From assembly GCA_032622095.1 (NCBI GenBank), contig CP136065.1, positions 154,695,577 through 154,759,576 on the forward strand: 64,000 nt of DNA. Reading direction: 5' to 3'. Position numbers and translations under genes: made by a program. Position 1 is the stretch's first letter. Every line of letters begins with the position of its first letter. Positions 34,080 to 54,863 of this stretch are shown here, piece by piece. The notes beneath the pieces are model-generated. The model did not search any database and had not been told where the DNA came from. It saw only the letters and a list, made by a program, of their open reading frames with translations. The stretch is from Siphonodentalium dalli (taxonomy: Eukaryota; Mollusca; Scaphopoda; Gadilida; Siphonodentaliidae).

Positions 34080-34169
34080 CATCGGATGGGTTGAGACCAT
34101 TATCTGTGGATGAGGGTTTTGATGAGGACAGTATGTAGTCTGTACTTTCTGGTGTCTGTGGTTGCATAT
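34080..34169 (-). CDS. Exon of the Tyr-motif gene (34.1 kb)
   Basis: A 90-bp exon, phase 1 at both ends. On the minus strand the acceptor reads TTCTCCAATTCAG and the donor GTGAGTG. It adds 29 whole codons, including PESTDYILSSSKPSSTDNG. The DYILS part is one copy of the [DE]YxLS motif seen in three other exons, and KPSST is shared with the 37.6 kb exon. The composition is Ser/Thr/Pro-rich and probably disordered. It is the most downstream exon found; the gene must continue, since no stop is reached, but I could not find the next exon before the window start. I do not recognise the protein. Confidence 0.72.
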
Positions 34170-34386
34170 CTGAATTGGAGAACATTTTGAGTAATAGCCT
34201 ATAATTACATCTTTTTGAATGATAAACTGTTTTCAAGCTTAGCAGCAAACCTCTACATGCATAACTCTGGAAATTTGACAAAGTGACAGCCCAATTCAGA
34301 GTAGACTGATGTTGATCATAACGATTATCTAATAGCAAGGTTTCGAACACAAATAGAATTGAAAGATGCACTGGTGCTCAAGAACA

Positions 34387-34640
34387 AACATCTGCCGATC
34401 ATGATCGGCAGATGTTTAACCCATAACCTCAGCAATAGTGATCAGCTATTTTCATCTTGGATGCTAAAATCAATAACATTCAATGTTAATCTTCCAAGAT
34501 TAGATTTTATTTTCGAAAAAGAGCCATAACTCCATTAAAAAAATTTGGATCAAACCCATACTCGAACTTGATCTGTATTTTGGGCTGAGAAACTCACATA
34601 CCAAATTTGGTTTAGATCCGGGCTTCAATCAGTGTTTCAC
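34387..34640 (+). repeat. Small palindromic repeat plus P-C core unit
   Basis: CTGCCGATCATGATCGGCAG and AGATGTTTAACCCATA match the blocks at 7.51 and 51.79 kb. From 34500, GAGCCATAACTCC and CCCATACTCGAACTTGATC match the P-C core unit at 9.5 and 52.7 kb. Confidence 0.5.
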
Positions 34641-34811
34641 TGGGGACTGATTGTTCTCTTAATACAGTGTGTTTCATGAAGATGGCCTCGGATTGGCTAC
34701 CTATGCAAATTGATACAATACAGTATGTTGGCCTTACTGTTACTCAACGATAAATAGGGAATGGTTAACATGTGTATTATTTATTGCGGGGATTACAGCT
34801 GGGGATAACCA

Positions 34812-35124
34812 TAACTTTATGTTAAAATAATGATTTAACATTATCTTTCTCACTCTTGGTGACTGCTGCTTACTTACCTGCATATGTAATAACAACCGGT
34901 GGTTTGTGTACCGAGATATGTATCGTTTGAACAACCGTATATATGACTGTATCATCAGTGCTGTATCACGGACGCATCAATACATCAATGTATCATTACA
35001 CCCCTATTCCAATCAGTGAGAGCTTTCCGATGAATGGCACAAGCCATATTTCCAGCTAAATCCTGAAAAGTTACCCATAATTCTGCTGTGGTTAAAGAGT
35101 CGATTATTTAGGGCATTACTGTAA
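34812..35124. repeat. 313-bp duplicated block, copy 1
   Basis: It is nearly identical to 44008-44319, from AACTTTATGTTAAAATAATG to the right end of a half M MITE (GGGCATTACTG). Both copies sit in introns of the same gene. Differences are single bases only, so the duplication is young. It carries a possible exon at 34878-34946. Confidence 0.88.
34878..34946 (-). CDS. Possible duplicated exon, copy 1
   Basis: On the minus strand a strong donor CAG|GTAAGT closes a 69-bp segment after GATGATACAG. Read in phase 1-1, the phase of all other exons here, it is open and gives IYTVVQTIHISVHKPPVV and ITYA. The acceptor has a poor pyrimidine tract, which lowers confidence. The copy at 44073-44141 differs by one base in this segment, a silent change (ATA to ATC) in this frame. 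Confidence 0.3.
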
Positions 35125-35146
35125 TCAATATGAAGTTATTACTTAC

Positions 35147-35230
35147 CACTATGAATTCCTCCATTCATTATCGGGGATTGGACTGACTGTGTGACATAAT
35201 CTGATGAGTCGAAAGAGTGTTGGCGTTTGG
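35147..35230 (-). CDS. Exon of the Tyr-motif gene (35.2 kb)
   Basis: An 84-bp exon, phase 1-1, with acceptor GCCATTTTAG and donor GTAAGTAAT. Its 27 whole codons read KRQHSFDSSDYVTQSVQS and PIMNGGIHS. RQHSF resembles a basophilic kinase site and SDYVTQS carries the acidic-Tyr feature of the sister exons, but not the LxLS part. The intron downstream is 977 bp and holds the duplicated block with a half M MITE. Confidence 0.75.
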
Positions 35231-35798
35231 CTAAAATGGCAAGATAAAAATCATGCATAAAACATAATAAATATTAAATTTCATGTTTTAAATAAAGTAA
35301 TTGGTAACAAAAAAGAATATATACCCCCATGGTGAAAATTGAAATATGGGCAGAAAAAAATGTGATGATCGAACAAATTGCTTGATTATATTAACAAACG
35401 ATGGAGGGAAATCCAACATTTTCAGATAAAGAAAAAGGGATAACTCTTGAATAGAAAATGTGAACAATGTCAATGAATGCTCTTTTGAAAGCCCTCCTGA
35501 TGTCAAACCTGCATACCAAATTTCATTAAGATCCGATAACTCATGGTCGAGATATAAGAGCGGATGGAAGGAAATCCAACATTTTCAGATAAACGAAGAG
35601 GGATAACTCTTGAACGGAAAATGTGAAAAACGTCAATGAACCCTCTTTTGAAAGCCGTCCTGATGCAAACCTGCATACCAAATTTTATTGAGATCCGATA
35701 ACACAGTTGAGATATATGAGCGTATGGACAGAAGTCACACATTTTCAGATAAACAAAGAGGAATAACTCTTGAACGGAAAATGTGAGCAATAACTTAC
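35231..35798 (+). repeat. Short intron made of tandem P-A core units
   Basis: Between two exons lie about three units of CCAACATTTTCAGATAAA, GGGATAACTCTTGAAC, CATACCAAATTTCATTAAGATC and GATATAAGAGCGGATGG, with a period of about 165 bp. The last unit runs up to within about 15 bases of the exon at 35799. The minus-strand open frames at 35288-35880 come from these units and not from the gene, except where they overlap the exon. Confidence 0.75.
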
Positions 35799-35891
35799 CA
35801 GTATTTACAGAAGCAGAGCGGGGTGGAGATGACGGTGGAGGTGGCGATTCATAGTTTTGTGAATCAGGTAACTGTTGCACAGATTCTTTGG
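35799..35891 (-). CDS. Exon of the Tyr-motif gene (35.8 kb), proline-rich
   Basis: A 93-bp exon, phase 1-1, with a strong acceptor (ATTTTTCAG) and donor GTAAGTTAT. Its 30 whole codons read KESVQQLPDSQNYESPPPPS and SPPRSASVNT. The run PPPPSSPPR could bind SH3 or WW domains. NYESP holds the tyrosine at the place where sister exons have [DE]Y. The borders and the reading frame are clear. Confidence 0.8.
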
Positions 35892-36028
35892 CTGAAAAAT
35901 ATCAATAAACATCAGAATATCAAAATAGTAAATGCAATCCCAATGTTTGAAAATGAAAAAGCCCAATTGGAATAAAATTGCTTTACTGAAATGGAAGTTA
36001 TAAGCAAGAAACAAATTAAACTTTTTGG

Positions 36029-36392
36029 ACCAAACCGCGATTTTCGCCGGACAACATATATTTGCGTCACCTTGATATACAATTTACCTTCCTTTTCCAA
36101 AATAGAGACATTTAATGAGCCTTTTTCTCGATCAGGCAAACGACCTGCAAAGTAATGCAGCCATTTTTCAGGTCTGTTCGATTGAGTTCGGAGCATATTT
36201 TCCCCTCGATACTGCGGGGTATGCCCGGAGCTTGATCGAACAGACCCGAAAAATGGCCGACATGCTTTGCGGGTCATTCACCTGATCGAGAAAAAGGTTC
36301 GTTAAAAGGTCTCTTTTTTAGAAAAGGAAGGCAAATGGTATGTCAAGGTGATGCATTAGTATATGTATTGTCGGGGAACATCGTGGTTTGGT
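36029..36392. repeat. Long intronic inverted repeat
   Basis: The left arm (ACCAAACCGCGATTTTCGCC, CACCTTGATATAC, CCTTCCTTTTCCAAAA, CTTTTTCTCGATCAGG, TTCAGGTCTGTTCGAT) is mirrored in order by the right arm up to GTGGTTTGGT. The arms are about 160 bases with moderate mismatch. It lies in the intron between the 35.8 and 37.6 kb exons, about 140 bases upstream of the former. The minus-strand open frames here are a by-product. Confidence 0.82.
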
Positions 36393-36582
36393 CATGTTTT
36401 GTGTTATATGTGTTATACTCTTCCTGTCCAGACTTGAAGTGACCTCTCTCATTACAGGCATCACGGAAATTTCAACAGGATATATTTATCCCGTAGATTT
36501 TCGACTAGTATGAAGCTGATTATATTTTTAAGTTTCCAGTTAAGTTGTCCAGTGTAATATCACTGAACTGTTAAAAACTTAC

Positions 36583-36606
36583 TTTGTAGTCTTGCATCCA
36601 ACACAT
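36583..36606 (-). pseudogene. 24-nt exon remnant A (possible microexon)
   Basis: On the minus strand, after AATATACAG, the 24 bases encode VLDARLQ in phase 1-1 and are followed by GTAAGTTT. They match the last codons (MVDARLQ) of the exon at 37576. The first two thirds of that exon are missing. An AG exists at the new border, so use as a microexon is possible but unproven. Confidence 0.4.
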
Positions 36607-36747
36607 CTGTATATTGTAAGCCCATCTTATGTTATCTAAAGATCTCTGCATGATATGCTGTTAAAGTTTCATATATGAAGCTGATTATATTTTAAAGTTT
36701 CCAGATACGTTGTCCATTGTAATATCATTTAATTGTTGAAAATTTAC

Positions 36748-36771
36748 TTTGTAACCTTGCATCCAACATCT
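36748..36771 (-). pseudogene. 24-nt exon remnant B (possible microexon)
   Basis: This is the same layout as remnant A: AATATACAG, then 24 bases encoding MLDARLQ in phase 1-1, then GTAAATTTT. The donor is weaker (GTAAAT). Derived from the exon at 37576 by tandem duplication. Confidence 0.35.
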
Positions 36772-36893
36772 CTGTATATTGTAACCCTATATTATGTTAT
36801 CTAAAGATCCCTGCATGTTATGTTGTTAATGTTTCATGTATGAAGCTGATTATATTTTTAAGTTTCCAGTTGCGTTGTCTAGTGTATGATCAT

Positions 36894-37560
36894 TTAAGCC
36901 TTTCACGACGGGAGCTGTGCTGGCGCAACATTAACAATCCTGTATCAATGTATTCTATTAGATACGCAAGGCGACAATTTTTGGATCATTTTTTTTAGTA
37001 AATGTTCTTACATTCTTTAAAGGTATATTATGCACTTGTTCGTGTGCGCGAAACTAATAAGTTAGTATTCAGGTGCTATGCCAACTGGAGGAATATAGTA
37101 TTCTGTTAAACATCGCCGAAAATCTCAAGCAAATCGACCGTACCACTCCATAGAAAACATCATCGGAACTATGCTCAATTGTAAATATTTACATCTCGAT
37201 TCGGGACGCAACTATTAGCGATATACTAACAAAAACCATTTCACTGCATGTAATTAATATATAAGAATGACGGTGTGAGTTGTCAATTTGATTATAATAT
37301 TTGTAAAAATAAATGCTTTGAGAAAGATTATTCTCCATTACTATTTTATCACCCTACCGGAGTGTTTCACATCACTTTAATAATTTTTTTTATTTTTTCT
37401 TATATTCTTTAACAATTATAAAAAAGAATATAAAATTTGTTAGGCCAATGTATTCTCTTATATATGCGAGGCAACCTATGGTTGACTCGCATATATAAGA
37501 GAATGCATTGGCACAGGATTTTTGCTAAATTTCAGGAAGCTCCCGTTATGAAAGAGTTAA
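36894..37560 (+). mobile_element. T1 MITE beside a splice donor, with inner insert
   Basis: It runs from TTAAGCCTTTCACGACGGGAGC to GCTCCCGTTATGAAAGAGTTAA. The first hairpin is cut after GATACGCAAGGCGAC; the second, with loop GCAACCTATGGTTGAC, is intact. It interrupts tandem unit C at its TTAA. The intact site is still seen in unit B at 36729-36732. Its right border lies 15 bases from the edge of the exon that ends at 37576. Confidence 0.85.
37017..37380. mobile_element. Probable TTAA insertion inside the T1 copy
   Basis: Both borders are TTAA (37017-37020 and 37377-37380), and both flanks resemble the T1 centre (TTCTTACATTCTTTAA on the left, TTTTTTCTTATATTC on the right). The right end TGTTTCACATCACTTTAA recurs at 20.26 kb. 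The inverted ends match poorly, so the family is uncertain. Confidence 0.45.
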
Positions 37561-37575
37561 CTGTTGAAAACTTAC

Positions 37576-37668
37576 TTTGTAGCCTTGCATCCACCATCTC
37601 TGTAGAAGACGGTTTACATTTGGACAGAAGATATTCTCTTGTTTCCGCTGAGGACCGCAGAAGATTCA
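37576..37668 (-). CDS. Exon of the Tyr-motif gene (37.6 kb)
   Basis: A 93-bp exon, phase 1-1, with a strong acceptor TTTGATTTCAG and donor GTAAGTTTT. Its 30 whole codons read NLLRSSAETREYLLSKCKPS and STEMVDARLQ. EYLLS is a copy of [DE]YxLS, and KPSSTE matches KPSSTD in the 34.1 kb exon; the STE..DARLQ tail resembles STSEDLKRRLE in the 44.7 kb exon. This makes exon duplication the likely origin of the series. Two partial tandem copies of its donor side lie at 36.58 and 36.75 kb. Confidence 0.8.
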
Positions 37669-37751
37669 CTGAAATCAAACAAACACCATTAGAACAGACA
37701 ATTAATTGACAAATGAGAATGTTCTAGTGGATAACTTCACAAGTCTACATT

Positions 37752-37990
37752 TAACATTTTTCACTAAATGAGCTCTCCCATTCAGTTATACAAATATACA
37801 TTGGAATGGTCCATTATTCATCTGGAGGGATGTTCAGTAAATATATAAGCAGTGCAGAAGGATTCCTATTCATTGGTGGGAAATGTTCAGATAATAAGTT
37901 CATCAATGTTCATTTGTTGAATTTATTAACTGAACATTTCCTAAGCAAATTTCTCATCAATATTACCAGTATTTAGTTAAGAAAGGGCTT
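37752..37990 (-). mobile_element. T2 MITE, reverse
   Basis: CACTAAATGAGCTCTCCC, CATTGGAATGGTCCATTATTC, AATGTTCAGATAATAAGTTC and the end AGTTAAGAAAGGGC follow the reversed T2 order. The borders have drifted from TTAA. Confidence 0.7.
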
Positions 37991-39513
37991 ATACATATTG
38001 CCTTTATATTGAAACGCACACATTTTTTTAATAAAATTAAATTTAGTTTCTTGACTGCCAACAGCGTATATACTTATTGTACTAATGTCCAAATTTGCCA
38101 AGTCTTATCATTATTTATAAATAATTCTTAAAGATGCAAGCAGCGTTCCCTGTGGGTATAGGTGTTAAAATAGTCACATCCACTAAAACCGCCATAAACA
38201 GGAAAAATATTATTTAAGAGACAGATGTTATTCTTATACCAATCACAAATATCGTGTACATTGCATGTTATTGTCACGTTTGTACCCTTGGTTATGTAAA
38301 CAGACATCAAAAATGCATTCAAATCACACCAAATTTTATTTTAATCGATCCATTCTACCCGCTGTCAGTTCAAAATCAAGCTAATCCATGTTACTTCATG
38401 ATTGGGAAATGATCAGACGGAAAACGTGTACATAATATAATTGTTTTTGCAAATAGATGAATATTTTTCAATCCAGTTAGTATTTTCTCCTGACCTATAT
38501 ATGGTAATACATACCAAATAACGAATATTATTATGAGTCCTATTGTGCGTTGTAAGTTGTTGGCACACCAAATTAGGGGTTTTACAACCGACGTATAAAG
38601 TGTGCGAATCTAAATAAGGAAATATCATGACTGCTTATAAACAATCCACTGCACTTTTTGCGAGAAACTAAACAATAGTCGACCAGTATTTTCACAAAGC
38701 GTGTTTTGGGAATAATATCGCATTCATATCATCATTATGCTGTACTATTAGGATACTGATTCTTGAGGAAATTATCATAATTTGATGTTATTTCTAAATT
38801 ATAACCTACAACGAAGGCCACCCGTCCCTTTAACCAACAATTAAAAAAACATTATTTTTAAAAGAAACTCCTGATGATGACACTTTGTATTATTATCACA
38901 AAAAATATGTGGGAAATATTTGCATGGCACACATATAATTGACCTTAACCCTTTAATGCTCCAATGGCATGTAAAACAGAAGCTAATAATACCCTACTCA
39001 TGTCTTTTTTCCAGATACGTTAGGGAATTGTGACAGCTACATGGCCGGGCATGCCTAAGTGTAAAGTAGCATTGAGATGACTGCGTTATGATGGTCCGTT
39101 GCAATGACATGATCCGTTGTCTGTTTCATGTTTACAATGTTATAAGGCAGAGCTTCCGATTAGTTAAATATTGGAATAAATGCAATATTGAAAATCAAAC
39201 TATCTGTTATCATGAATTCTAAATCTAAATCTTCATTCTCATATATACAAGTAAAATTTCTGTCACTTAGCAGACTAATCCGCCATCTTTAATCGATTAA
39301 ATACAAGAACCACTAAATGACATAATGATGCACATGCTACCATGCCATAAGGTATGTATTGGGGATTGTATTGCATTGAAAATAGAATCTCTCAGTTGGA
39401 TGAGTTAACGGAAAGGACACACAGCAGCTATCTAAATTCCTTGTGCCATTATCTGTATCCCAATTTCAATGAAGTGCACTAATGAACAATGGATCCAATG
39501 TAACAGATACGCC
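37991..39513. other. Intronic DNA, nothing recognised
   Basis: Part of the 4.1-kb intron between the 41.8 and 37.6 kb exons. The short minus-strand frames at 38128 and 38413 have no exon-like borders. Confidence 0.4.
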
Positions 39514-39776
39514 TTAAACCTTTCTATACGAAATGGATTCTCCCACTCAGTTGTAAAAGTATAGATTTGAATATTCTATTCTCGATGGGATTTTCGAGAA
39601 AAATAAGCAGACGGCAAATAATACAAGTACAGAAGGAGTCTTATAAATTGGAGGGAAATGTACAGATAATAAGTTCCAAACAGCCTATGGTCATTTGATG
39701 AACTTATAATCTGAAAATTTTCTAAGGGATAACTACATGAGTATTCAATGAGTATTGGGTTTAGAAAGAGTTTTAA
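39514..39776 (-). mobile_element. T2 TTAA-flanked MITE, reverse
   Basis: It runs from TTAAACCTTTCTATACGAAATGG to GGGTTTAGAAAGAGTTTTAA. The inner palindrome AATAAGTTCCAAACAG with TTTGATGAACTTATAATC is present. Confidence 0.75.
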
Positions 39777-40197
39777 CGAAGGCTATTAACCACCTAGCTA
39801 TGACAGGATCAGTGTTAATATGAGAGATTTTCCACTGACAGATCACACATGGAACACAACCTGGTAATGTTCGCATACTGATAACAGACAAAAATGAATA
39901 CTGCAAAAGGCTCTAATTTCGTTGGTATCAATTTTCATGTCATGGCTTAGCAATTTACGATGTTTTTATGGGTTAGTAAATTTGTGGGTCTGCCAATAAT
40001 AATTGTCACCTCCACTTCCTTAATAATGGCCATCAAACTCAAATATTACAAGAGCAGATGCATTGGTTGGTTAATGAGAATTATACAGGCGATTGCAGGC
40101 GTAATAAACATTGCAATATTGGGCATTTGTTGCTGACTATATCGTGGGGAAAGTAACATGATGTTATTATGCCTACATTTGCTGGATGAAAGTGCTC

Positions 40198-40683
40198 AAT
40201 AGGTCGCCTCGCATATATAAGAGAATGCATTGACCAAATTTTTTTTTTTTAATTTTTCTTACATTCTTTAACAATTTTGATCATTTTTGATCATTTTCTC
40301 TTATATTCTTTATTTTTGATAATTTTTTTTTACATCTATAGCAATTTTTATCATTTGTTCTTATATTCTTTAAAAAAAAAATGATAATTTTTGATAATTT
40401 TTTCTCATGTTCTTTATAAATTTTTATCATTACTTTCTTACATTCTTTAAAAAAAATTATCATAAAATTTGTTATCATTATTTTTTAATACATTCTTCAA
40501 AAAAAAATTATCGTTTTTTCTCTCCATTTTTTCTTACATTCTTTAACAATTATAAAAAATAATATAAAATTTGTTAGGCCAATGAATTCTCTTATATATG
40601 CGAGGCCACCTATGGTCGACTCACATATATAAGAGAATGCATTGGCGCAGGGTTTTCGCAAATTTCAGTCTTGGAATGGTTAA
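40198..40683 (+). mobile_element. T1 MITE, GTCGCC-loop type, with AT-rich expanded centre
   Basis: The left hairpin is halved (TAGGTCGCCTCGCATATATAAG); the right one (CGAGGCCACCTATGGTCGAC) is whole; the end is GTCTTGGAATGGTTAA. The centre at 40250-40560 is a degenerate tandem of TTCTTACATTCTTTAA and TTTTTATCATTT words with a step of roughly 30-60 bases. The minus-strand Lys/Ile-rich frame is a product of this tract. Confidence 0.78.
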
Positions 40684-41511
40684 ATGATACAATCAGAATG
40701 GAATATATTTATTGTATTCAAGCTGTTACCGTTATGTTTAAATTTGAACTAATATTTGCCCTTAAAGGCACGTGCGGCATTAATTGTCGAAAATATTCAT
40801 ATTTGTTCCAAACACCGTAAACAGAAAAATATTAAAACGCATACAGTTCCGTTCATATATACCATGACCATCGCGTAAACAGCATGTTATCATAAAGATC
40901 TACTATAATTTACCTAAGCAAGAGCCTGATTGTGTTACAGAAGACAGCACAGTGCTACTGGCTAATCACACACAAATGGCATAAACGCTCTTTATTAGTT
41001 CCATATCAGGTATTCAACAGCAAAGAACGCTCTTTATGTTTACCATCATAATATAAACAAACACCAGAAAAGTTACTTTTTATGCTTTTGTTTACATAAC
41101 AATGGTCAAACATATGACCATAACATACTGTTTATGCGATATTTATTATTTGTATACGGACAAAGTCTATCTACATTTGTATGTTCTTTCTGTTTGTGGC
41201 GGTTTTTGACGGGTGGATATATTTTCACAGGATACCCACCGCCAAGGCCAACCGTACCTTTAAGTTTGTTCAGTATTTTACTTAGAAGTTGACTATTCAT
41301 TGATATACTACCATATTGATAGTTATGGCCCCAGACCACCTGCATAATATTGTCCAATATGGCAACCACATGGAGTAGTTTTAAGTCAGCGATAATTTTG
41401 TTAACAAACATGAGCATATATCGAGAGGGATCTTCAATTCAAGGTTGATCACAACCACGGAAATTTGACGATGACGAAATAATGTCGTGCAAGCCCATAG
41501 TGGGACAATAG

Positions 41512-41779
41512 TTAACTCATTCATAATGAGAGCTGCGCTGGTGTGGCACTCAAGATCCTGTGCTAGTGCATTCTCTTATAAATGCGAGTCTCCCATAGGG
41601 AGCCTTGCATATATAACAGAATGCACTGGCTTATAAGACAAGTTCAAGTAATAATGTTAGGCCAATGTATTCTCTTATATAAATGTGAGGCTCCCATTGG
41701 GAGACATGCATATATAAGAGAATGCATTGACACACGGTTTTCTCAAAATTTCTGGAAGATCCAGTCATGGAAGGGTTAA
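41512..41779 (+). mobile_element. T1 MITE next to a splice donor
   Basis: It runs from TTAACTCATTCATAATGAGAGC to GATCCAGTCATGGAAGGGTTAA, with both hairpins present. Its right border is 21 bases from the edge of the exon that ends at 41800, so in the transcript it starts just inside the intron. Confidence 0.85.
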
Positions 41780-41799
41780 GGCTGACTGCAGAGACTTAC

Positions 41800-41883
41800 T
41801 TTGAATATTGTTTGGTTGTGGAGACAATCTGTACTCTGGGGACCTATAATCTCTCGACTCTATAGAAACTGGGGGTGGTTTGT
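41800..41883 (-). CDS. Exon of the Tyr-motif gene (41.8 kb)
   Basis: An 84-bp exon, phase 1-1, with acceptor AATTTCTTTCCAG and donor GTAAGTCTC. Its 27 whole codons read KPPPVSIESRDYRSPEYRLS and PQPNNIQ. It contains two tyrosines in acidic context, DYRSP and EYRLS; the second fits [DE]YxLS. PPP at the start adds another proline-rich patch. The acceptor has a good pyrimidine tract and the donor is close to consensus. Confidence 0.82.
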
Positions 41884-42463
41884 CTGGAAAGAAATTAAAT
41901 ATGTGGTCATAAACTCAACTTAGCTATCACCCTTCAAATGAATCAATGGGAATCAAGTAATTGCTCATCAAAGACACTTCAGTCATCAAAGGTTTAGTTA
42001 GCCCTTTGATAACTATTGATAGGTTGTTCAATGATTCCTGTTCGTTTGTTTGAATATTCAAATAAAAAAATTCTCAAACTGAACCGAGGGTTTTCCATTC
42101 AGGAGTGAATATCTTAATGTAATAAGGTTCAGAGACCAGGACTGCGGATACTTATGGAGTTTGTTTTCACAGCAGTTGCATCGTTCACGATCACAGAGAC
42201 ATAGAGATGCCACTGATCCTGTCAAGGCTGCAAATAGCCTGTCTGTCATTTGCAGAATGAGGTCCTTATAGTGATGCTATCCCGCACAGTGGGCTAGCAT
42301 CACCAAATTCACCCTCTGGAGAGCTCATTCTGCTTAGGCCTCATCTTGTGGGAAGTATCTAGTCTCAAATTAACATTGTTTTTAGATACGTTTTCCCTTC
42401 TGGGACATTTCTATATCCCCTAATTTGCAGAAGATAAAATTCATAATCGAGGTGCCCAATGGG

Positions 42464-43625
42464 CAGTGTTCGCGCTGTCGGTAGCCAAATTAGCCAATGG
42501 CTAATCTTTTTCGAATTTGGCTAATAAAAATTTCATTTGGCTAAACTTTTGGCTAAACTTTTTTTGAACCCAAATGGAGACTGAAAGCATGGAGCCAGAA
42601 AGCTAATTAATAAAAGCGCTCAATAGATCGACATTCAAGACGAAGTTAGGTGACGAATGTATTTCATTATTTTCGTACTTATGAAATATCGTACAAAGGG
42701 AACCCCGATCGACAACTCTATCAGCCAACCAAGCGATCACAAAGTGATATGCAATCATCTTTAGTTTTCACAAGACGGACATTCAAAGGTTGAATTATGA
42801 CAATGTGAAGAAAGCAATGTTTTGTAAAGTGCATTGACGCCGGTATATAAGCAATTTGTTCGTAACAGGCTGTTTTAATCTGGAGAAAGATTATGTCACC
42901 CTGCACGAAGCAGCAAAAGGTCATTATTAATTTTTACATTTAATCCCCTAATCCCCCATTCAGCCCATTGTCTGTCTGATCACTCACGGCGCGCCTGCAC
43001 AATGCATGTATATGATGACATTGTATTTATGACGGTCGAGGTTTATGAGCACCAAGTGTAAGACAATAGCTTAATCAGCCAAATGTGAATCACGACAGAT
43101 ATTTTGTGGCTATTTGTCGTCAATACCGATACAGTCAAAATAATATGCATGCTTTTATGACAGATTGTAATTTGATAATGGCGTAACAATATTAAGTTAT
43201 TAGTTTCCAGATGTCACTTAAATATTTATCCTTGGATAAATATTTAATGATTTTAAAAAAGATATTGATATAAAACAAAAAAATAATTACATTAAGAAGG
43301 ACAATCCCGGGTTACCCCCCCCCCCCCCCCCCCCCCAAATCACTCTTTCACATAAAGATTAATAAATTTGTAATAAATGATATATATAAAAATACTTCTA
43401 GTTCATCAAAATTGTTTCAATTATTGTGTATTTTACCTGTGTCTGTTAGATTTTACGTTTTAGTCATTAATTGTGAACCGACCAGAAAACGATGATTTAA
43501 TTTGGCCAAAGTTTTTTTTAATTTGGCCAAAAAACATTTGGCTAAAGTTTTTTTCATTTGGCTAATAAAATTTTCATTTGGCTAAACTTTTGGCTAAAGT
43601 TTTTTTCGGTACAGCGCGAACACTG
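42464..43625. mobile_element. hAT-like non-autonomous element, 1.16 kb
   Basis: Terminal inverted repeats CAGTGTTCGCGCTGT and ACAGCGCGAACACTG are flanked by the 8-bp duplication CCAATGGG (42456-42463 and 43626-43633). CAGTG-type ends with an 8-bp duplication are the hallmarks of hAT elements. Both subterminal regions hold repeated ATTTGGCTAAACTTTTGGCT words in inverted orientation. No transposase is encoded. A C22 run lies at 43315-43336. Confidence 0.9.
43315..43336. repeat. Poly-C run, 22 bases
   Basis: This is an uninterrupted C run inside the hAT-like element. Confidence 0.9.
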
Positions 43626-44007
43626 CCAATGGGTGAACGTACATCACCAACTTCAACTGGGGAACTTCAATCTGATCCTAGGTCTATAATGGCAGTTGAG
43701 GGCTTAAGCATAATGAGGTTCGCAGAGCGTGAATTTTGTGATACTAGCCAACTATGCAGGATAGCAATACTAAATTCACCATCTGGGGACCTCATTCTGC
43801 AAATGAGAGACACGCTATTTGCAGACTTGATCCTGTCAAGGCTGTTCGAGTAAACATTTTGGTGACTTCAAATTCACTTCTGATTGAAAAGATTTGTCAG
43901 TGCTCTACATTGTCGGAACATTTAAATAATTATAAATACAAACAAAACACGAGGTCCTAAGTATGATGTAAATCAGAAAATCTGAAATCGAAAATGACGT
44001 GATGCTA

Positions 44008-44319: not shown

Positions 44320-44692
44320 ATACTTACTGAAGAAGGCCAGTGGCCAAAAGCTTCTTTGAAAGAGCGTTTTTTTCATCATTTGTCTCAGTAAACCTTGCTA
44401 ATTCTTTCATGAGTGAGGGTAACAGATTTACGTGGCGGTTGCACTGATTTTTTATAATTTACCCGAGGGCTCCCCTGACTTTTCATGGAGAATTCCTGGT
44501 TACCATAAATAATTACTAGTACATGTGGTAATTTTTAAATGCAATTTACACGATTAATTGACTCGTGTCACAGATCGATTAGGGAACATGATTCCCTAGT
44601 TATTTAGCATCAGGCAATACACCACTGTGGACACAGTATAGGTGGGAACAACGTCACCAGTTAGACATTCATTTAAAACAGTACATGCATAC

Positions 44693-44767
44693 CTTCTAGC
44701 CTTCGTTTCAGATCTTCTGAAGTTGATGGATGATTGTTCGACAAACTGTAATCCTTAGAATCGCCAC
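44693..44767 (-). CDS. Exon of the Tyr-motif gene (44.7 kb)
   Basis: A 75-bp exon, phase 1-1, with acceptor TATAATTGAAG (a weak pyrimidine tract) and donor GTATGCATG. Its 24 whole codons read GDSKDYSLSNNHPSTSEDLK and RRLE. DYSLS fits [DE]YxLS. The C-terminal EDLKRRLE is likely helical and parallels the end of the 37.6 kb exon. Confidence 0.7.
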
Positions 44768-45360
44768 CTTCAATTATAGAAGATTTAATTTGACTAATTT
44801 CCAAAAACTCCTATTTAAATGATCTCCATAACCATATTGTGCCCATAATGACTGCGTTGTTTTTTAATCAAAATGCAAAACTATTCTGCAATAAATGTGG
44901 GATGCACGGTGTGCTGATGAATTCAAATATGAAATCATAGCTGCTGACAGACATGTTGTTTTAACAAATTTCGGCAAAAATAGATGACTCACATCTAGTG
45001 GCAAGTTCAGGTAACCCCGAAGATCTATATGATGCTTGCTGATGGTCAGATGAGGGATGTGGCTTGTAGGGTGTGCTGAAGGAATTTGTTGATGGATATG
45101 AACATACGCGAACCATTGGCAATAGATCAAACTTGAGCTAATAAAGTGATTGTAATGCAAATAGCATCAGACAATGTGACTTAGTGGTCACCTGAAGAAG
45201 ATCAGATTTCTTATTCTTGCCATGTTACATGTATGTATTCCTGTAAGTACACATCCAAACTAATAACTGCAGTCAGAATGTTAATTTGTAAAGTAAACAG
45301 CCCTAGAATGTATTAAGAACAGCTAAACTCTAAATGGATATAGCTCTCATTTAGTGCTTA

Positions 45361-45450
45361 ACCCTTTCATGATGGGAGCTGCACTGGTGCAGCATTAAAG
45401 ATCCTGTGCCAGTGCATTCTATTATATATACGAGTCTCCCATAGGCAGCC
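45361..45450 (+). mobile_element. T1 MITE, left third only
   Basis: TTAACCCTTTCATGATGGGAGC and GATCCTGTGCCAGTGC, with the start of the first hairpin, are followed abruptly at CATAGGCAGCC by core-repeat DNA. The copy at 54.46 kb ends at the same CATAGGCAGCC word. Confidence 0.75.
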
Positions 45451-45459
45451 ATGTTTTTA

Positions 45460-47590
45460 ACAGAATTCAGAAAAAATCTAGAGGTCACCCCTAGGATCCA
45501 TATGAAGTTTGCTGATGATCGGATGAGGGATATGCTATGTAGGGTGTGCTAAAGGATTTCGTCATTCAAAGAGTAAATACCAAGATGCCTGCTAGCGGCC
45601 ATGGTTTCCATAAACAAGACAGTCAATGACTGTGGAGACACTCACCAGACTGTAAAGACTGAGAAGACTGGGACTCGGAAGACTATAAGAGTTAGTACTT
45701 GTCAAATTCACTTAAAAACAAGTAGTCCTAAAGAGGGACGTAGCCAAGATGGTCTCTGTTGAGCAGTGGGGTGTCCACCTTGAAATATGGTCCAGATTAC
45801 CCCACCCCACATAGTCCATAGTCTGCTCACTCCCAACTGAAGCAAGCACACTCCCAAGTTCGTAAAATTCCTTTGCACATGTTGCAATTTTACAACTGAT
45901 ACCTCAAGCTTTCCTAAATGTGGCAAAGTTACAACCTGACATGCCCCCATTTTTTAATGGTGGACCCCATATTAATTTTTTTTGATCCCAACTCTCCATA
46001 GGCAATATACACAAAATGCCAAATTTCTTGAGTGGTCGAACCCATTTTAACAAATCGTGTAACCCAGTCCAAAGTGACACAAGGACCTCCATACTAGTTA
46101 CTACATATAAGCCAAATAAGACTGATGGCTCTTGAGGAGCCATTTTAAGAATTACTATGGGGGAAGAGTTATGTCCCTGGTCGCACCCCTATTTGACCTG
46201 GTGAACCCATTTCAAAAGATCTGAATCCCAGTCACCCAAGGACTCTCTATACCAAAATGTATGCTAAATATGCCAAATGGTTCTTGAGAAGATGTTTTAA
46301 AAATAACTGAGGGAAAGAATTACGTCCGTGGCTCTGACCCTATTTGACCTAGTGATCCAATTCTGAATCAAATCTGAATCACCCATTCCAAATATAAGCT
46401 GAATAGGCCTGATGGTTCTTGATAGGAAGAAATTTAAGAATTACAATGGATGGACAAGTTATGTCCCTGGCTCCGCCCTTATTTGCCCAGGTGACCTCAT
46501 TTTAACACATCTGTATCCCTGTCACTCAAGGACCTTCCATACCAATTATAAGCTAAATAGCCCCGATGATTCTTGAGAAGATGTTTTAAGAATAACTATA
46601 AATGGAAAGAGTTAGGTCCCTAACTGTGCCACTTTTTTGACCATGTGACCCACATTTGAACAGAATTGAATCCCAACCACCTAGGGACCATTCACACAAT
46701 ATATGTCTCAATTCTTCATTTCAGGTAAGCTGAGAAAAATGCCTCCTTCTTTCTCATCCAGTTTCCCATATGTATTTGCCTGAGAAAACAGGTATTTAGT
46801 TTTAATGGCCTAACTGTCAGATTCATCATTCATTTTTTATCATAAGCTATGGGTCATTTATATACAAACTCTTTAACAGGCAGCGAATTTTAGGCTATTC
46901 ATCCGAGGAGCTGTCATTCCGATCAGATTTTGTTAACACTGCCATTTCATTTATTACTTTATAATCAATGTGACTTCTATATGGTGTTAAGTAAACATTC
47001 TGTGATTGCAGACAACTTCCTCATATCTCATAGAGCTCTGAGTATCTACTAGCTGTTTGAATGTTCTTGATTTTAGACTGATTTAAACCAAATTTGGTTG
47101 AGTCACCCTGGCGGATGTTATAATGGTGTTATTTATTTATTTTTTATTTTTTTTCAAATCTAATTTTTTTTTAGGTTTTTGTTGTTGTTGTTAAATATTT
47201 TAAGAGTTGTGTCCCTGGCTCTGCCCCTATTTGACCCAGTGACCCCATTTGAACAAATCTGAACCCCAGTCACCCAAGGACCCTCCATACCAAATATAAG
47301 CTAAATCGGCCCAATGGTTCTTGAGAAGTCATTCTAAGAATTACTATGGAGGAATAGAGTTATGGCCCTGCTTTCATAACTATTTGACCCAGTGATCTCA
47401 TTTGAACAAATCTGAATGTGAGTCACCTAGGGAACATCCACACCAAATATGAACCCATTCGGTCTTATGGTTCTGAAGAAGAAGAGGTTTAAAGAATTGT
47501 TGACGGATGGACGGATGGATGGATGGACGGACGACAGACGAGGAGTGATGACTATAGCTCCACCGGAGACTTCGTCTCAGGTGAGCTAAA
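45460..47590 (+). repeat. P-E core-repeat cluster with terminal hairpin
   Basis: Units of about 165 bp share TTTGACC...GTGA, CTGAATCCCAGTCACCC, CCATACCAAATATAAGCTAAAT and GGTTCTTGAGAAG. They fill 45.97-46.7 kb and 47.2-47.5 kb. The end at 47.51-47.59 kb is a GGATGGACGG microsatellite and a hairpin CACCGGAGACTTCGTCTCAGGTG, then AGCTAAAA. The stretch 45606-46250 is the counterpart of 10.85-12.13 kb. Confidence 0.72.
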
Positions 47591-48400
47591 AATCATACAA
47601 ATTCGATAGCTCCCATCAATAGGTGATCCTAAACAAGTAAAGTTTAGTAAAGTTTCAAATCAATTCTCCCAAAAATGTGGGCTACAGAGTGTGCTGATGG
47701 ATTCACATTTGAAATGCAAGATGGCTGCTGGGGGCCATGTTTTTTTTAACGAATTTTGGGAAAAAAGGAAGACTCCCATCTAGAGGTCACCCAATCCATA
47801 TGAAGTTTGGTGACGGTTGGATGAGAAATGTGACCTGTAAGGTGTGCTAGAGGATTCAGTCATACAAAGAGTAAAATCCAAGATGGCCAATGGCAGCCAT
47901 GTTTTTTTTATAAACAGAATTCATCCATCTAGAGGTCACCCTGAAAATCCATATGAAGTTTGGTGATGATCAGATGTGGGATATGCTCTGTAAGGTGTGC
48001 AAAACGATTTAGTTATGCAAAGAGTAAAACCCAATATGGCTGCCAGTGGCCATGTTTTTCATCGAAATTCGTACAAATTTTATAGCTCCCATCTGGAGGT
48101 GATCCTAGACCCATATACCTAATATCGTTGAAATCGGTCAATGTTTGTTTTATTTATCTCGCTAACGGTCGCGAATGATCAAAATAGCTAAAAATAGACA
48201 AACTAAGTCCTATAACTCTCGCATAAAAGATTGGACAAACCTGGTTTTCAAACTCGTTCGAGATATTGTTGCAACAGACCCATATACCAAATATGAATGA
48301 AGTCGGGTTGACATTTGTTTGAGTTATCGCGCTACTGGTTTCGCGCCTGTCCGGACGCCTGCCTGAAGACCTCGCCTAAGAAAAAACTCGACTAAACATA
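47591..48400 (+). repeat. Mixed core-repeat fragments (P-D and P-B' types)
   Basis: CAAGATGGCTGCTG and CAAGATGGCCAATGGCAGCC with GAGTAAAATCCA recall the 20.5 and 53 kb arrays. At 48.15-48.40 kb, TTATCTCGCTAACGG, ATAACTCTCGC and GGTTTTCAAACTCGTTC recall the 23.2-24.2 kb array. Unit lengths are again near 165 bases. Confidence 0.6.
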
Positions 48401-49182
48401 ACTAGAGGTATGACTGTCCCAATGGGACTAAGGATACCCCCCATGTTTTTAAAATACTAAGATGTTTCACATGTCAGTAAACATTTAGTTAAAATAATAA
48501 AATAACAGTTCCCATTGCAGGTGCACAAACCTAACCGTAATCTTAAACCTATTGACCGAAAAATGTAGGAATAAAAGCTCAGACAAAATTATGCATTTTG
48601 CAAAAATGTTCTAAGTCGAAAAAGGGGAATAACTCCACAAAAAGAGTCGGACAGACATCATAATCGCAGGTGCACAGGTTCTCATGGTACTAAATATCAG
48701 TGTCAAGATTAAAAAACATTGACCTAAAAATGTAGAAATAAAAGCTCGGACAAAATTAGGCATGTTGCAAAACAATGTCTAAGTCAAAAAAGGGAAATAA
48801 CTCCACCAAAAAATGCCGGACAGATGTCATAATCGCAGGTGCACAGGTTCCCATGGTATTATATGTCTGTGCCAAGTTAAAAAAAATTGACCTAGAAATG
48901 TAGGAATAAAAGCTCGGACAAAATTATACATGTTGCAAAAATTTTCTAAGTCGAAAAAGGGGGAATAACTCCAACAAAAAAAGTTCGACAGACGTCATAA
49001 TCGCAGGTGCACAGGTTCCCATGGTGGTTGATGCCTGTGCCAAATTTCACGGAAATTGATAAAAAAAACAGCTGAGAAAAACTCCGGACAAATTTGTGTC
49101 CACAGACGGACGGACGATGGACGGACGGACGGACAAGCTGACTCCAGTATACCCCCCCTAACTTCGTTGCGGGGGGTATAAA
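48397..49182 (+). mobile_element. P-B pearl/Helentron-like element, complete copy
   Basis: The 5' end reads ACTAGAGGTATGACTGTCCC, then the palindrome GTCCCAATGGGAC and ATACCCCCC. Core units of about 168-170 bp follow, sharing CATAATCGCAGGTGCACAGG, TGTAGGAATAAAAGCTCGG and GGGAATAACTCCA. Then come a GGACGGACGGACGG tract and the terminal hairpin ATACCCCCC...GTTGCGGGGGGTAT. A matching element lies at 56.17-57.48 kb. There is no protein-coding capacity. Confidence 0.78.
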
Positions 49183-50156
49183 AACATCTTACAGTAATGT
49201 AACTGACATTTCAGGAGCAAAGACCAGGAGCCTATATAATCCATCTTTATGGTAACTGTATCACAGGGTCATGCAAATCACTTTAATAAGATTTAAGCCA
49301 AATACAAACTCATGGCACATGTACAAGTTATACTGAGTGATACCTGATATGGTACACTTGAGTGCAGTACTAGATTATCATAAATAAGCATGTAGGAATC
49401 ATGTTTGAATCGTATCATAAATATGATTCTTAAAAAAAAAAGATGTACAATAAAAAAATGGTCAATGTATGCTTATATGTGACTGGCACGCACATTCCAG
49501 ATGACCACATGCATTATGAGTGTGGTCGTCTGACATCTGGCCTACTTTTGTACCACTAAAGGCAATATCTATGGTGTTATTGATTGAGATATACTGAACT
49601 CGTCAGCATCTAGTTAATTATCTCTTTAGTAGATGTCATGTGCCTGTCAGGTGAGATTTGGATATCCTGGGTACTCTAATCAACCTTTTGGAGTTCCTGG
49701 GTACCCAGTAAATATGGAAACATTGCCAATTCAGCATCAGTATTATGCATATAGAATAAATGTACCAGCTGCCACAGATGGGTTTTCCTTTTCAGACAAC
49801 AATTTTTTTTTTAAATCTTGTTTTTGACATATTTGTATCATAATAATTTTCTTGATTGAGATATATATTATTTTTTTTCTAATGTTTATTACCCAACGAG
49901 GAATGTATAATATGCATTGCAATAAACACAGCACAGAGTGAACGCGTTAATAAGTATTCATACCTGTCCAATCTCTTTTTATTTTGTGAAACACGCAGAG
50001 CCTCTCGAAAAAACATTTTATGCCATATAGTCAGCCATGCATGCCAGAACACAGATGTGTTGGCCAGAGAGGCGTTAAATCGAATGGTAGCTGTGCAAAT
50101 ATGCAAACTTTCGCAATATCGACTACAAAAAGTTTATTCTGACTAGAAAATCTCAC
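49183..50156. other. Intronic DNA, nothing firm
   Basis: Part of the 5.4-kb intron. The plus-strand frame at 49633-49827 contains a short internal repeat (YPGY...VPGYP) from a duplicated CCTGGGTAC word. It has no confirmed exon border. Confidence 0.35.
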
Positions 50157-50252
50157 CTAATCTGTATGCTGGTGGGTGATGATCTGGCATTGAGTGCTTC
50201 AAGGATTGTATAAGTAGATCCCTCATCTCAGCCTGTGATTGAACAAATTTAG
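50157..50252 (-). CDS. Exon of the Tyr-motif gene (50.2 kb), with PPxY
   Basis: A 96-bp exon, phase 1-1, with a very good acceptor (CTTTTCTTTTTCAG) and donor GTGAGATTT. Its 31 whole codons read KFVQSQAEMRDLLIQSLKHS and MPDHHPPAYRL. PPAY fits the PPxY ligand motif of WW domains, and the first half (AEMRDLLIQSLK) is probably an amphipathic helix. The splice sites and frame are the best of the series. Confidence 0.85.
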
Positions 50253-50439
50253 CTGAAAAAGAAAAGAAAATTTAAAATATAGAAAAGATATATTCATGAT
50301 TCTGAGCACATTTTGCACCTTTGAACTGCATAAACTACTGTTAGGCACTTCTACGATGTTACATTATCAGTGGAAGTGCCTACTAATGTGACATTACAAA
50401 CAAGAAGACACCTCGGGTACTAGCATACTCCCAAGTTGC

Positions 50440-50641
50440 CAAATTGAGACATGGGCAGGATGGAAACCAAATTTAAAAATATGCAAAGAAGGATAACTCT
50501 AGAACAGAGAATGCAAACATTGTCATTTACTCCACTTTTAAAAGCAGTCATAATAGTGAACATACATTCCAAATTTCATCCAGATAAAATAACCCAATGT
50601 ATTCTCTTATATATGCGAGGCTTTATTCATGGAAGGGTTAA
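50440..50641 (+). repeat. P-A core unit joined to a T1 end
   Basis: GGATAACTCTAGAACAGAG, then GTGAACATACATTCC and AATTTCATCCAGAT, is a P-A unit. From 50595, TGTATTCTCTTATATATGCG and CATGGAAGGGTTAA are the two ends of a T1 right half with the hairpin deleted. Confidence 0.6.
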
Positions 50642-51393
50642 CCTGAGATATAGTAAATACATGTAAACTATGAAGTGACAACCTGAAGTCAGCAGTCTAT
50701 TGATGATTGTTGTCACTTAACTTTAGTTCGATTTCATGTCAGCGATACCCTTTTTATGGAAATATCATATTTATTATTAAAGCAAATTTGTTTTAAATTA
50801 CCTAACTTCACCAGACCATAACATTTCCCCAAGTTCAAGTCGGTATATGCAGTGCCCAAAATATGGAAATGTGCCCAAAATGAACATGACAATGTATTTT
50901 TTGCCATTAATAATAATAATTGAAGCATTTATATTGTGCATTCCACAGAAATAGTTTCAGTGCGCTCCACCTTAAATTTTGTAAAATAATCACTTCAATG
51001 AAATAGAGTACACCTAACTACATGATATATGCAGAAATTGGAAGACATATGATATCAATCAAAATAAAATTCAGAGCACTATCGTATTGGCCACAGGTAT
51101 TGGTCACATGTAGTGAGCCATGATGTGAGCAATTGCGCCACTACATTGTATAGCTATGTTTATATATTAGAGAAAACTCAAATGATTCCATATTGATATC
51201 GATTAATATAATCCCGTAATCGATCATTGTCAGAATTTTAGTGCTAGGATTTAAAGTTTTTTGGTCGAAACTTCGAAATTTTATCATCCTTCCGGGTTGA
51301 AGTATGGTTTGCCTGATTTGCCCAAATTACACTAATCTAAGGGCCTGATCTTCACAACTAAATAATCAACAATTATCATCTGTGCACTGTATA

Positions 51394-51433
51394 CAGTAAT
51401 GCCCGAAGTATATGATTATTTAGGACATTACTG
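51394..51433. mobile_element. M MITE reduced to its two ends (40 bp)
   Basis: CAGTAATGCCCGAAGTATATG is joined directly to ATTATTTAGGACATTACTG, with TA on both sides. It is the smallest M copy, lacking everything between the terminal 20 bases. Confidence 0.85.
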
Positions 51434-51785
51434 TAGTTGGTGGTCCTTAAATCTTCATGAACAATTAAGAGCCATATTAACTGCATGCATGCCATCGGAT
51501 AAATAACTTTTACATAAATATTTTTGTCAGTTATGAATTCCCACATCAGGGTATGTGAATTCAAAGTTTGTGAATTTAAAACGGAGCTAAAATAGTACTG
51601 CGCAAATTTAAATTTAAGTATAAGTCCATCTGAACATTATCTCCAAATGACTAAATTGATTGAGGATGGTTACTGAACTTATTATCTAAACATTGCTCCA
51701 AATGACTGTATTGCACTTGTACATGTATTGTCACAACACTGATCCAAATGAATAATAGACAAATCCATGTACCTATTTCACTCAG

Positions 51786-51850
51786 CAACGAGAGGCCGAT
51801 CACGATCGGCAGATGTTAACCCATCCCTTGGCGATAGTAAATTACTATGA
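51786..51850 (+). repeat. Small palindromic repeat, third copy
   Basis: GAGAGGCCGATCACGATCGGC and AGATGTTAACCCATCCC, then GCGATAGT, match the blocks at 7.51 and 34.39 kb. Confidence 0.6.
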
Positions 51851-51949
51851 TCGGAATCATAAATGAGAGTTTTTATGTTGAATTATAGAGTATACTGTTA
51901 TGTACTATTATAGACAAATGTACATAACACAAATTATTGGAATTTATGG

Positions 51950-52016
51950 GTCACTCGCATGTATATAAGAGAATGCACTGGTACAGGATATGTAATGCTG
52001 CACCACCACAGCCTTG
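51950..52016 (-). mobile_element. T1 MITE fragment
   Basis: CGCATGTATATAAGAGAATGC, then GATATGTAATGCTGCACC, is the left-end side of a reversed T1 copy. Confidence 0.55.
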
Positions 52017-52429
52017 GGTTAAATGTGAAAAAGGTGAGCTGGACATGGAATGCTTGGGTTAAGAGAGTCAAATTTAAGTTTACAAGGATAGTGTATCAAA
52101 TTATACCAACACCCATCAAGATAAAGACACCTCACTGCTGACCCAGTAATATCAATTATATAGCAGAGCTGTCAACAAATCACAGACATTGTTTATATTG
52201 ATGACGGCATCATCTCTATTAAACCAACAACATTTATAATGACTTCAGGCCATCTGTCGAGTGATATACTCAGTGATATACATAGCTTTCTTTATTTGCA
52301 CATTGGCATAAGAGACATTCAGAAAATAAAATCGCCTTAACAATAGCTAAGTAGTCCAAAGGCATGGGATGGAATTGATGAATTGGGTTTAAAGTCGCTC
52401 CAAACAAATTTACCAGTACATAACACAAG

Positions 52430-52945
52430 ATTATGGACCGATTTAGACCAAATTTGGTGTGGTGACTCGGGGTACCCTTGGCAGAGTTATAATGGTGTTA
52501 GTTTTTCAAATTTGGTTACCTTTAAATTTTTTATTTTTTTTTAATTATTTAAACAAAAATGTTTATTATATATTTTTGTAATTTATTTATTCATATTTTT
52601 TTTTTTTTTTTTTTTTTAAATTAGCAAGGAATTCAATCTTCTTCTTTTTTTTGAGTGAATCTATTTTTTCGAAAATGGGCCATAACTCAGTTAAATATAG
52701 TCGGCTCAAACCCATATTCGAACTCGATCTGTATTTTGGGCTGAAAAACCCATATACAAAATTTGGTTTTGATTAGATAGAAAATGTTTGAGTTATCGCA
52801 TTACATGTAAAGTGTCTACGGACGGACCGACGGGCGGATGGACATATGCACGGACGGACGGACGGACAAACGACGAGTGGTTAATCCGGACAACGACACT
52901 ATGTTTTAATACCATACTATGGTATGGGTAAACATAATGAAAGTG
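52430..52945 (+). repeat. P-C pearl/Helentron-like element
   Basis: A leader (TTTAGACCAAATTTGGTG), T-rich tracts, one core unit (GGGCCATAACTCAG, CCCATATTCGAACTCGATC), a GGACGGACGGACGGAC tract and the hairpin ACCATACTATGGTATGGGTA are present in order. It matches 9.44-9.71 kb. Confidence 0.68.
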
Positions 52946-53034
52946 TCAATGACACTGTAGCTCAACTTAGGTCGGTAAATAATTTAATGGTTGACAGTAA
53001 ATGGAGGAATAGGAAAGGTGCTAATTGAAATGTC

Positions 53035-54250
53035 TAACCTGTGCCAAAGGATTTAGTCATGCAAAGAGTAAAATCCAAGATGGCTGCTGGTGGCCATGTT
53101 TTTTTGACCAATTGACCCCAAAAGGACTCGTTCCCATCTACGTGTCATTGTTAACATCCATGACAAATTTCATGAAGAACTGACCAAAGCTACGACCTGT
53201 AGCCCGCGCCAAAGGATATAGTCATGCAAAGAGTAAAATCCAAGATGGCTGCTGGCAGACATGTTTTTCAGCCGAATGACCCGAAAATGACTCGTTCCCA
53301 TCTACATGTCATTGTTAACATCCATGATAATCTCATGAAGTTCCGACCAAAGCTACGACCTGTAGCCCGTGCCAAAGGATTTAGTCATGCAAGAGTAAAA
53401 TCCAAGATGGCTGCTGGCGACCATGTATTTTGGCCGAACGACCCCAAAATCACTCGTTCCCATCTACATGTCAATATGAACATCCATGACAAATTTCATG
53501 ATGATTAGACGAACAGTACGACCTGTAGCCCGCGCCAATGGATTGAATTTTGAAATCCAAGATGGCCGCCAGCAGCCATGTTTTTTTGCCGAATGACCCC
53601 AAAATGACTCGTTCCCATCTACATGTCAATGGCAACATTCATGACAAATTTCATAAACATCGGACCAAAGGTACGACCTGTAGCTCGCGCCAAAGGATTT
53701 AGTCATGCAAAGAGTAAAATCCAAGATGGCTGCTGGCAGCCATGTTTTTCGGCCGAACGACACCAAAATGACTCGTTCCCATCTACATGTCATTATTAAC
53801 ATCCATGACAAATTTCATGAAGTTCTGACCAAAGCTACAACCTGTAGCCCGCGCCAAAGGATTTAGTCATGCAAAGAGTAAAATCCAAGATGGCTGCTGG
53901 CAGCCATGTTTTTTGGCCGAACGACCCCAAAATGACTCGTTCCCATCTACATGTCAATATTAACATCCATGACAAATTTCATGATGATCAGACAAACAGT
54001 ACGACCTGTAGCCCGCGGCAATGGATTGAATTTTGAAATGTTTTTTGGCCGAATGACACCAAAATGACTCGTTCCCATCTAGATGTCAATGTCAACATTC
54101 ATGACAAATCTCATAAAGATCAGACCAAAGGTACGTCCTGTAGCCCGCGCCAAAGGAAATTGTTGACGGACACACGGATACACGCGCACACGGATGACGG
54201 ACGCCAAACCATGGCAATAGCTCAAACTTACAAAGTAAGTTGAGCTAATA
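53035..54250 (+). repeat. P-D tandem core-repeat element, second copy
   Basis: Seven or so units start with CGACCTGTAGCCCGCGCC near 53190, 53352, 53518, 53674, 53836, 54000 and 54132, a period of about 160 bp. They share AAAATCCAAGATGGCTGCTG and ATGACTCGTTCCCATCTAC with the 20.5 kb array. The end is again a CACACGGA tract, ACGCCAAACCATGGCAATAG and GTTGAGCTAA. It lies inside the 4.6-kb intron between the 54.8 and 50.2 kb exons. Confidence 0.82.
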
Positions 54251-54279
54251 AAAAGGTTAGTTGCACTATAGTCACATAT

Positions 54280-54560
54280 ATATATGCTCCATATGAAGTT
54301 TAGTGATCACTGGATGAGGGATGTGGCCTGTAGGGTGTGCCAAATGACATTGTTGATGGATGTATGGACAGATGGACCATGCCAACGCATGGCAATAACT
54401 CAACTTTGACTTTATCAAGTTCAAGCTAAAAACAGATTGACTTTGTTCTTATTTTCATTATTAACCCTTTCATGACGGGAGCTGCGCTGGTGCAGCAATA
54501 AAGACCCTGTGCCAGTGCATTCTCTTATATATGCAAGTATCATAGGCAGCCAGTTGAATT
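54280..54560 (+). repeat. Core-repeat 3' end followed by a truncated T1
   Basis: Bases 54290-54430 (GATGAGGGATGTGGCCTG...AATAACTCAACTTTGAC...AAGCTAAAA) are a typical element end. A T1 left third follows at 54463-54560 (TTAACCCTTTCATGACGGG to CATAGGCAGCC), cut at the same word as the copy at 45.45 kb. Confidence 0.6.
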
Positions 54561-54815
54561 ACTGATAAAAGTCCTATTAGAACATTAAGGTACCAAAGTT
54601 AAATCAAAATTTGATGGTAAACATAGGAAAAAATAAAAGTATTTTTCAGACTAAAATATTTGAACTTAGTACATGTTTAGCAATGTTTGTTGACAAATTA
54701 CTGTAACATTTTTGTTTACTTAACAATTTCTCAGAAATTTTATTGCCATGCTAAAACTACTTTCCAATGAAAAAAGTTCCTAAAATACTGAAATTGTTAT
54801 GGAAGACTGCTTTAC

Positions 54816-54863
54816 CTCGATTAATGAGAGAACCAGTAGACCCTGTTGACAAGTCAACCCAGG
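54816..54863 (-). CDS. Exon of the Tyr-motif gene (54.8 kb)
   Basis: A 48-bp exon, phase 1-1, with acceptor CTTAATATTAAAACAG and donor GTAAAGCAG. Its 15 whole codons read WVDLSTGSTGSLINR. It is the most upstream exon I can support and lacks a tyrosine motif. Phase and borders fit the series, but the short length and the less ideal donor leave doubt. The start of the gene was not found. Confidence 0.5.

Follow-up and report, generated by a model that had tools for sequence, protein, structure and literature searches.

What gene do eight small, evenly framed segments on the minus strand of a scaphopod contig belong to, and what might their product do? The segments lie at positions 34080 to 54863 of a 64,000-nucleotide stretch of the Siphonodentalium dalli genome (C5:154695577-154759576, in an assembly of 2.23 Gb and 9 contigs), which we call the window. 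The DNA examined also took in 80 kb upstream of the window and about 66 kb downstream; negative coordinates lie to the left of the window, and both the array and the receptor described below are on the minus strand. We conclude that the array probably encodes part of the A/B (N-terminal, activation function 1 [AF-1]) region of an NR1-type nuclear receptor, whose single-copy gene lies on the minus strand of contig C5. The receptor is of a known kind; an N-terminal region built of several duplicated, skippable exons looks unusual.

Symmetric exons and their shared unit

A first-pass annotation had described eight small minus-strand segments with AG/GT borders and open frames, all of phase 1-1, and we found them exactly where it had placed them, with borders and frames as described and with lengths that are all divisible by 3. 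The motifs that it had listed (DYILS, EYLLS, EYRLS, and DYSLS; KPSSTE and KPSSTD; NYESP, DYVTQS, and PPAY) are all present, and its point that such exons could be skipped in frame holds in principle, given the lengths and the shared phase. The segments, with splice-site scores in bits, are as follows:

E1, 54816-54863 (48 bp), minus strand: doubtful segment, phase 1-1, WVDLSTGSLINR; acceptor 2.4, donor 7.1
E2, 50157-50252 (96 bp), minus strand: phase 1-1, KFVQSQAEMRDLLIQSLKHSMPDHHPPAYRL; acceptor 15.2, donor 9.3
E3, 44693-44767 (75 bp), minus strand: module exon, phase 1-1, GDSKDYSLSNNHPSTSEDLKRRLE; acceptor 3.4, donor 8.2
E4, 41800-41883 (84 bp), minus strand: phase 1-1, KPPPVSIESRDYRSPEYRLSPQPNNIQ; acceptor 10.8, donor 8.0
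E5, 37576-37668 (93 bp), minus strand: module exon, phase 1-1, NLLRSSAETREYLLSKCKPSSTEMVDARLQ; acceptor 6.9, donor 8.0
E6, 35799-35891 (93 bp), minus strand: proline/serine rich, phase 1-1, KESVQQLPDSQNYESPPPPSSPPRSASVNT; acceptor 9.2, donor 10.8
E7, 35147-35230 (84 bp), minus strand: module exon, phase 1-1, KRQHSFDSSDYVTQSVQSPIMNGGIHS; acceptor 7.2, donor 9.8
E8, 34080-34169 (90 bp), minus strand: module exon, phase 1-1, MQPQTPESTDYILSSSKPSSTDNGLNPSD; acceptor 3.6, donor 10.3

The donors are good throughout (7.1 to 10.8 bits). Acceptors are good in five of the eight, strongest at E2, weak at E8 and E3, and poor at E1. An alternative 27-bp form of E1 that uses an internal acceptor scores 4.9 bits, and E1 showed no peptide similarity to the module exons. 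Seven of the eight segments are convincing as exons, and the 48-bp E1 is weak. The segment at 45646-45682 (SSESQSSQ) also looks like an exon and was dropped because, at 37 bp, it would interrupt the chain of phases. Upstream of the window, at 77623-77718 on the minus strand, lies a candidate further 5' exon of 96 bp and phase 1-1 (NGVSQSESPAIFLPGTSMPKDLLSEKLPAEA) with good splice scores, as yet unproven.

As a control for chance, all phase 1-1 candidates in the window that do not overlap one another were collected, 32 on the minus strand and 18 on the plus strand. Ranked by shuffle z-score, the six most similar peptide pairs among the minus-strand candidates all link exons of the array, and the plus strand yielded one weak similar pair. 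Summed over all pairs of the seven longer exons, BLOSUM62 similarity came to 549, against 372 ± 18 in shuffled peptides. The firm homologous core is formed by E3, E5, and E8, which carry [DE]Y-x-L-S-x3-P-S-[ST]-[ST]-[ED]. In peptide comparisons E5 matched both E8 (BLOSUM score 50, p 0.0005) and E3 (p 0.0005), and E3 against E5 and E8 gave p ≤ 0.001; E5 and E8 are related in DNA as well (p 0.001), and E3 is related to both in protein alone. Because these three exons are alike in protein more than in DNA, we take them to be coding and the product of exon duplication. Between E5 and E8 the NG86 estimates were 0.26 for nonsynonymous divergence (dN) and 1.03 for synonymous divergence (dS), on a very small sample of 13 codons, and a dN below dS, together with the protein conservation of E3, E5, and E8, is the pattern of coding sequence under constraint. 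Elsewhere in the array, E2 resembles E5 weakly (p 0.002) and E7 resembles E8 weakly (p 0.008), and the similarity of E6 to the other modules was not significant; E2, E4, E6, and E7 show weak or no resemblance to the core unit.

The short motif [DE]YxLS was rejected as evidence when taken alone, since chance copies turn up on both strands outside the array, in a stretch of 174 kb; it is nonetheless concentrated inside the exons, with 4 occurrences observed against 0.01 expected in shuffles. When 200 kb were searched with a profile of the modules, no others came to light, and no paralogue of the array was found elsewhere in the genome, nor any contiguous retrocopy that unites it with the zinc-finger exons described below. 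Just downstream of E5, a 165-bp tandem repeat (36509-36838) carries two fragments of the 3' end of that exon:

36564-36611, minus strand: partial duplicate of the E5 3' end with donor, 83% identical to the 48-nucleotide reference copy at 36729-36776
36729-36776, minus strand: second partial duplicate, E5 3' end and donor region, 92% identical to 37557-37604

These fragments indicate that parts of exons have been duplicated at this locus. The window also holds 32 copies, at three mismatches or fewer, of a sequence near TGCATTCTCTTATATATGCGAG (17 plus, 15 minus). They often face one another, in the manner of a palindromic miniature transposable element; examples on the plus strand are at 37449, 40583, 45413, 50598, and 54516.

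A receptor gene downstream of the array

Although the first-pass annotation could match the array to no known family, nuclear-receptor domains lie downstream of it. The exons found there are on the strand of the array:

zf1, -3988 to -3894, minus strand: first finger, phase 1 to 0
zf2, -7318 to -7168, minus strand: second finger, phase 0 to 1
Hinge exon, -14355 to -13118, minus strand: 1.24 kb, about 412 residues, phase 1 to 0
Ligand-binding exon 1, -22574 to -22419, minus strand: phase 0 to 0
Ligand-binding exon 2, -25826 to -25607, minus strand: phase 0 to 1
Ligand-binding exon 3, -36668 to -36571, minus strand: phase 1 to 0

Their phases chain without conflict from zf1 through the third ligand-binding exon. 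When joined, they match zf-C4 (PF00105) in Pfam at 5.4e-27 over positions 2 to 70 of 70 and Hormone_recep (PF00104) at 4.7e-13 over positions 16 to 174 of 213. A genome scan for zinc-finger exons picks up C5:154691585 and C5:154688262. On these domain matches the downstream gene is a member of the nuclear receptor superfamily, with a predicted C4 double zinc finger and ligand-binding domain. Two features of the exons stand out. The hinge, all in one exon, is unusually long and contains PLNLS and SLDLRK, both reminiscent of CtBP-binding motifs, and the loop that follows GFFRRALQ in zf2 is longer by two or three residues than its counterpart in ROR, Rev-erb, and RAR.

E8, the last module ahead of the zinc-finger exons, ends in phase 1, and zf1, 38 kb downstream and outside the window, starts in phase 1, which makes the two compatible. 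Within that gap first coding exons scored at most 9.7 and terminal exons at most 12.8, and no internal phase-1 exon other than the zinc-finger exon scored above 14.8. E8 is about equal to the best gap candidates on splice sites and composition and is distinguished from them by its homology to E5. As neither a good first exon nor a good terminal one was seen there, a gene boundary between E8 and zf1 has little support. The array precedes the exons for both receptor domains, shares their strand, and matches them in phase; it is therefore most likely the N-terminal A/B region, not the tail that had first been supposed. Measured from E2 through ligand-binding exon 3, the predicted gene spans at least 87 kb.

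Several points weigh against this assignment. The splice from E8 to zf1 is one that we infer, and it implies a 38-kb intron. Secure homology is limited to three of the seven exons: leave-one-out profiles recover those at 34080 and 37576 and, marginally, that at 44693, and they did not recover E2, E4, or E7, with E6 not included in the profile. Measured against a small set of receptor genes from the same genome, the array's synonymous codon usage does not look like that of coding sequence; the receptor exons do score as coding-like but are partly in the training set, and the codon scoring discriminated poorly. A search of 29 kb downstream did not reveal the last ligand-binding exon (helices 10 to 12, AF-2), and the start codon and most 5' exons were not found. 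Finally, an activation function and coregulator binding are drawn from what is generally known of AF-1 regions.

Composition, possible function, and alternatives

The array is rich in serine and proline, with a FoldIndex of -0.09 against +0.19 for the ligand-binding part, and the peptide stretch is probably disordered. Tyrosine in acidic context ([DEN]Y) is enriched, at 7 against 1.4 in shuffles, as is Yxx[SP], at 6 against 2.3 (p 0.008). The SH2-type YxxP is not (2 observed against 0.9 expected, p 0.22), and neither are CK2-like and SP/TP sites, which had looked suggestive at first.

The N-terminal regions of nuclear receptors are fast evolving and poorly understood. In the gene proposed here, the unit [E/D]-S-x-[D/E]-Y-x-L-S-x3-P-S-[ST] has been multiplied by exon duplication, and the symmetry of the phase 1-1 exons would allow copies to be added, lost, or skipped while the reading frame into zf1 is kept and the DNA-binding domain is left untouched. 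Several acidic-aromatic-leucine units together might then contact coregulators and determine how strong AF-1 is, and alternative splicing might vary the number of modules. In its full form the proposal is that AF-1 is a combinatorial array in which the number of [DE]YxLS modules differs by tissue or stage and tunes transactivation stepwise, with tandem duplication still adding exon fragments; we regard this as doubtful. A precedent in this receptor group for N-terminal variation by exon choice comes from E75 (NR1D), which has isoforms that arise through alternative 5' exons (PMC4499807). A receptor with an AF-1 made of duplicated symmetric exons would offer a natural series in module number for learning how transcriptional output depends on short motifs within a disordered region; the finding is placed here in a receptor of the mollusc NR1 type, whose affiliation is unclear.

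A narrower version of the A/B-region explanation is that the exons are real receptor exons but constitutive, encoding a fixed disordered linker in which the motif is a functionless relic of old exon duplication. This is a real possibility, if short of probable: four of the seven exons are without clear resemblance to the core unit, and the composition is that of a disordered stretch under low constraint, but the motif has been kept in the proteins of E3, E5, and E8 despite divergence in their DNA, and every exon is still symmetric, as skipping or copying needs.

It is unlikely that the array instead belongs to a separate gene that ends in the 38-kb gap and encodes a phosphotyrosine adaptor or scaffold, with the receptor a mere downstream neighbor. 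The enrichment of acidic-context tyrosine and of Yxx[SP] fits such a product. However, the gap offers no convincing first or terminal exon, the phases agree, and the E8 donor is strong. The phosphotyrosine scaffold of the first-pass annotation was not borne out either, as YxxP is not enriched, no SH3, PTB, or membrane-anchoring domain was found, and the array peptides alone gave nothing meaningful against Pfam and PDB. That the segments are chance AG/GT-bordered open frames in intron or intergenic DNA is very improbable, for while the acceptors at 34080, 44693, and 54816 are weak and there is no synonymous codon bias, all six of the top peptide pairs in the phase 1-1 set are pairs of these exons, the plus strand has nothing comparable, and the summed similarity is far above that of shuffles.

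Affiliation of the receptor and comparison with known systems

Returning to the receptor to which the array probably belongs, the two domains point to different NR1 groups. The DNA-binding domain is closest in PDB to ROR-gamma (1.5e-28), followed by NR1D1 (5e-26) and RAR (7e-25); the ligand-binding domain is closest to NR1D2 (Rev-erb-beta; 2.7e-27), followed by PPAR-gamma (2.7e-21). The P-box CEGCKG is present (ACEGCKGFF), and this, together with the closest similarity to ROR, Rev-erb, and PPAR, places the predicted protein in NR1 groups C to F. Elsewhere in the genome are receptors that we take, as leads, to be HR3-like (L034), E78-like (L037), E75/PPAR-like (L044, L042), RAR-like (L036), TR-like (L033), and EcR-like (L050). 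Since HR3-like, E78-like, and other such genes exist separately, the array receptor appears to be one more NR1 receptor within the C-F cluster. A pair of nuclear-receptor finger exons elsewhere in the genome, at C9:44537556 (minus) and C9:45208693 (plus), have the same scores and the same displayed peptides; 0.67 Mb apart in opposite orientation, they are either a recent duplication or an assembly duplicate.

Like the substrate domains of the p130Cas type, with their repeated YxxP docking sites, the array repeats a tyrosine-centered short motif in a disordered, serine- and proline-rich stretch. Unlike them, it is not enriched in YxxP and has no SH3 or focal-adhesion domains, and the domains downstream of it are those of a nuclear transcription factor. 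Among receptors, the likeness to ROR/HR3 (NR1F) lies in the DNA-binding domain and that to Rev-erb/E75 (NR1D) in the ligand-binding domain; the array receptor differs from both in the extra loop residues, in the long hinge exon, and in the existence of a separate HR3-like gene. To our knowledge, an A/B region of duplicated exons with [DE]YxLS units is found in neither NR1D nor NR1F. The molluscan receptors CgNR1CDEF-alpha, CgNR1CDEF-beta, and MgNR1DEF nest among NR1C to NR1F without firm placement (Vogeler et al. 2014, PMC4070562), and in the available portion of that paper we found no account of their N-terminal exon structure. As these receptors are described there, the array receptor resembles them: it too is related to NR1C, NR1D, NR1E, and NR1F at once with no clear one-to-one assignment, and it too occurs beside HR3- and E78-like genes.

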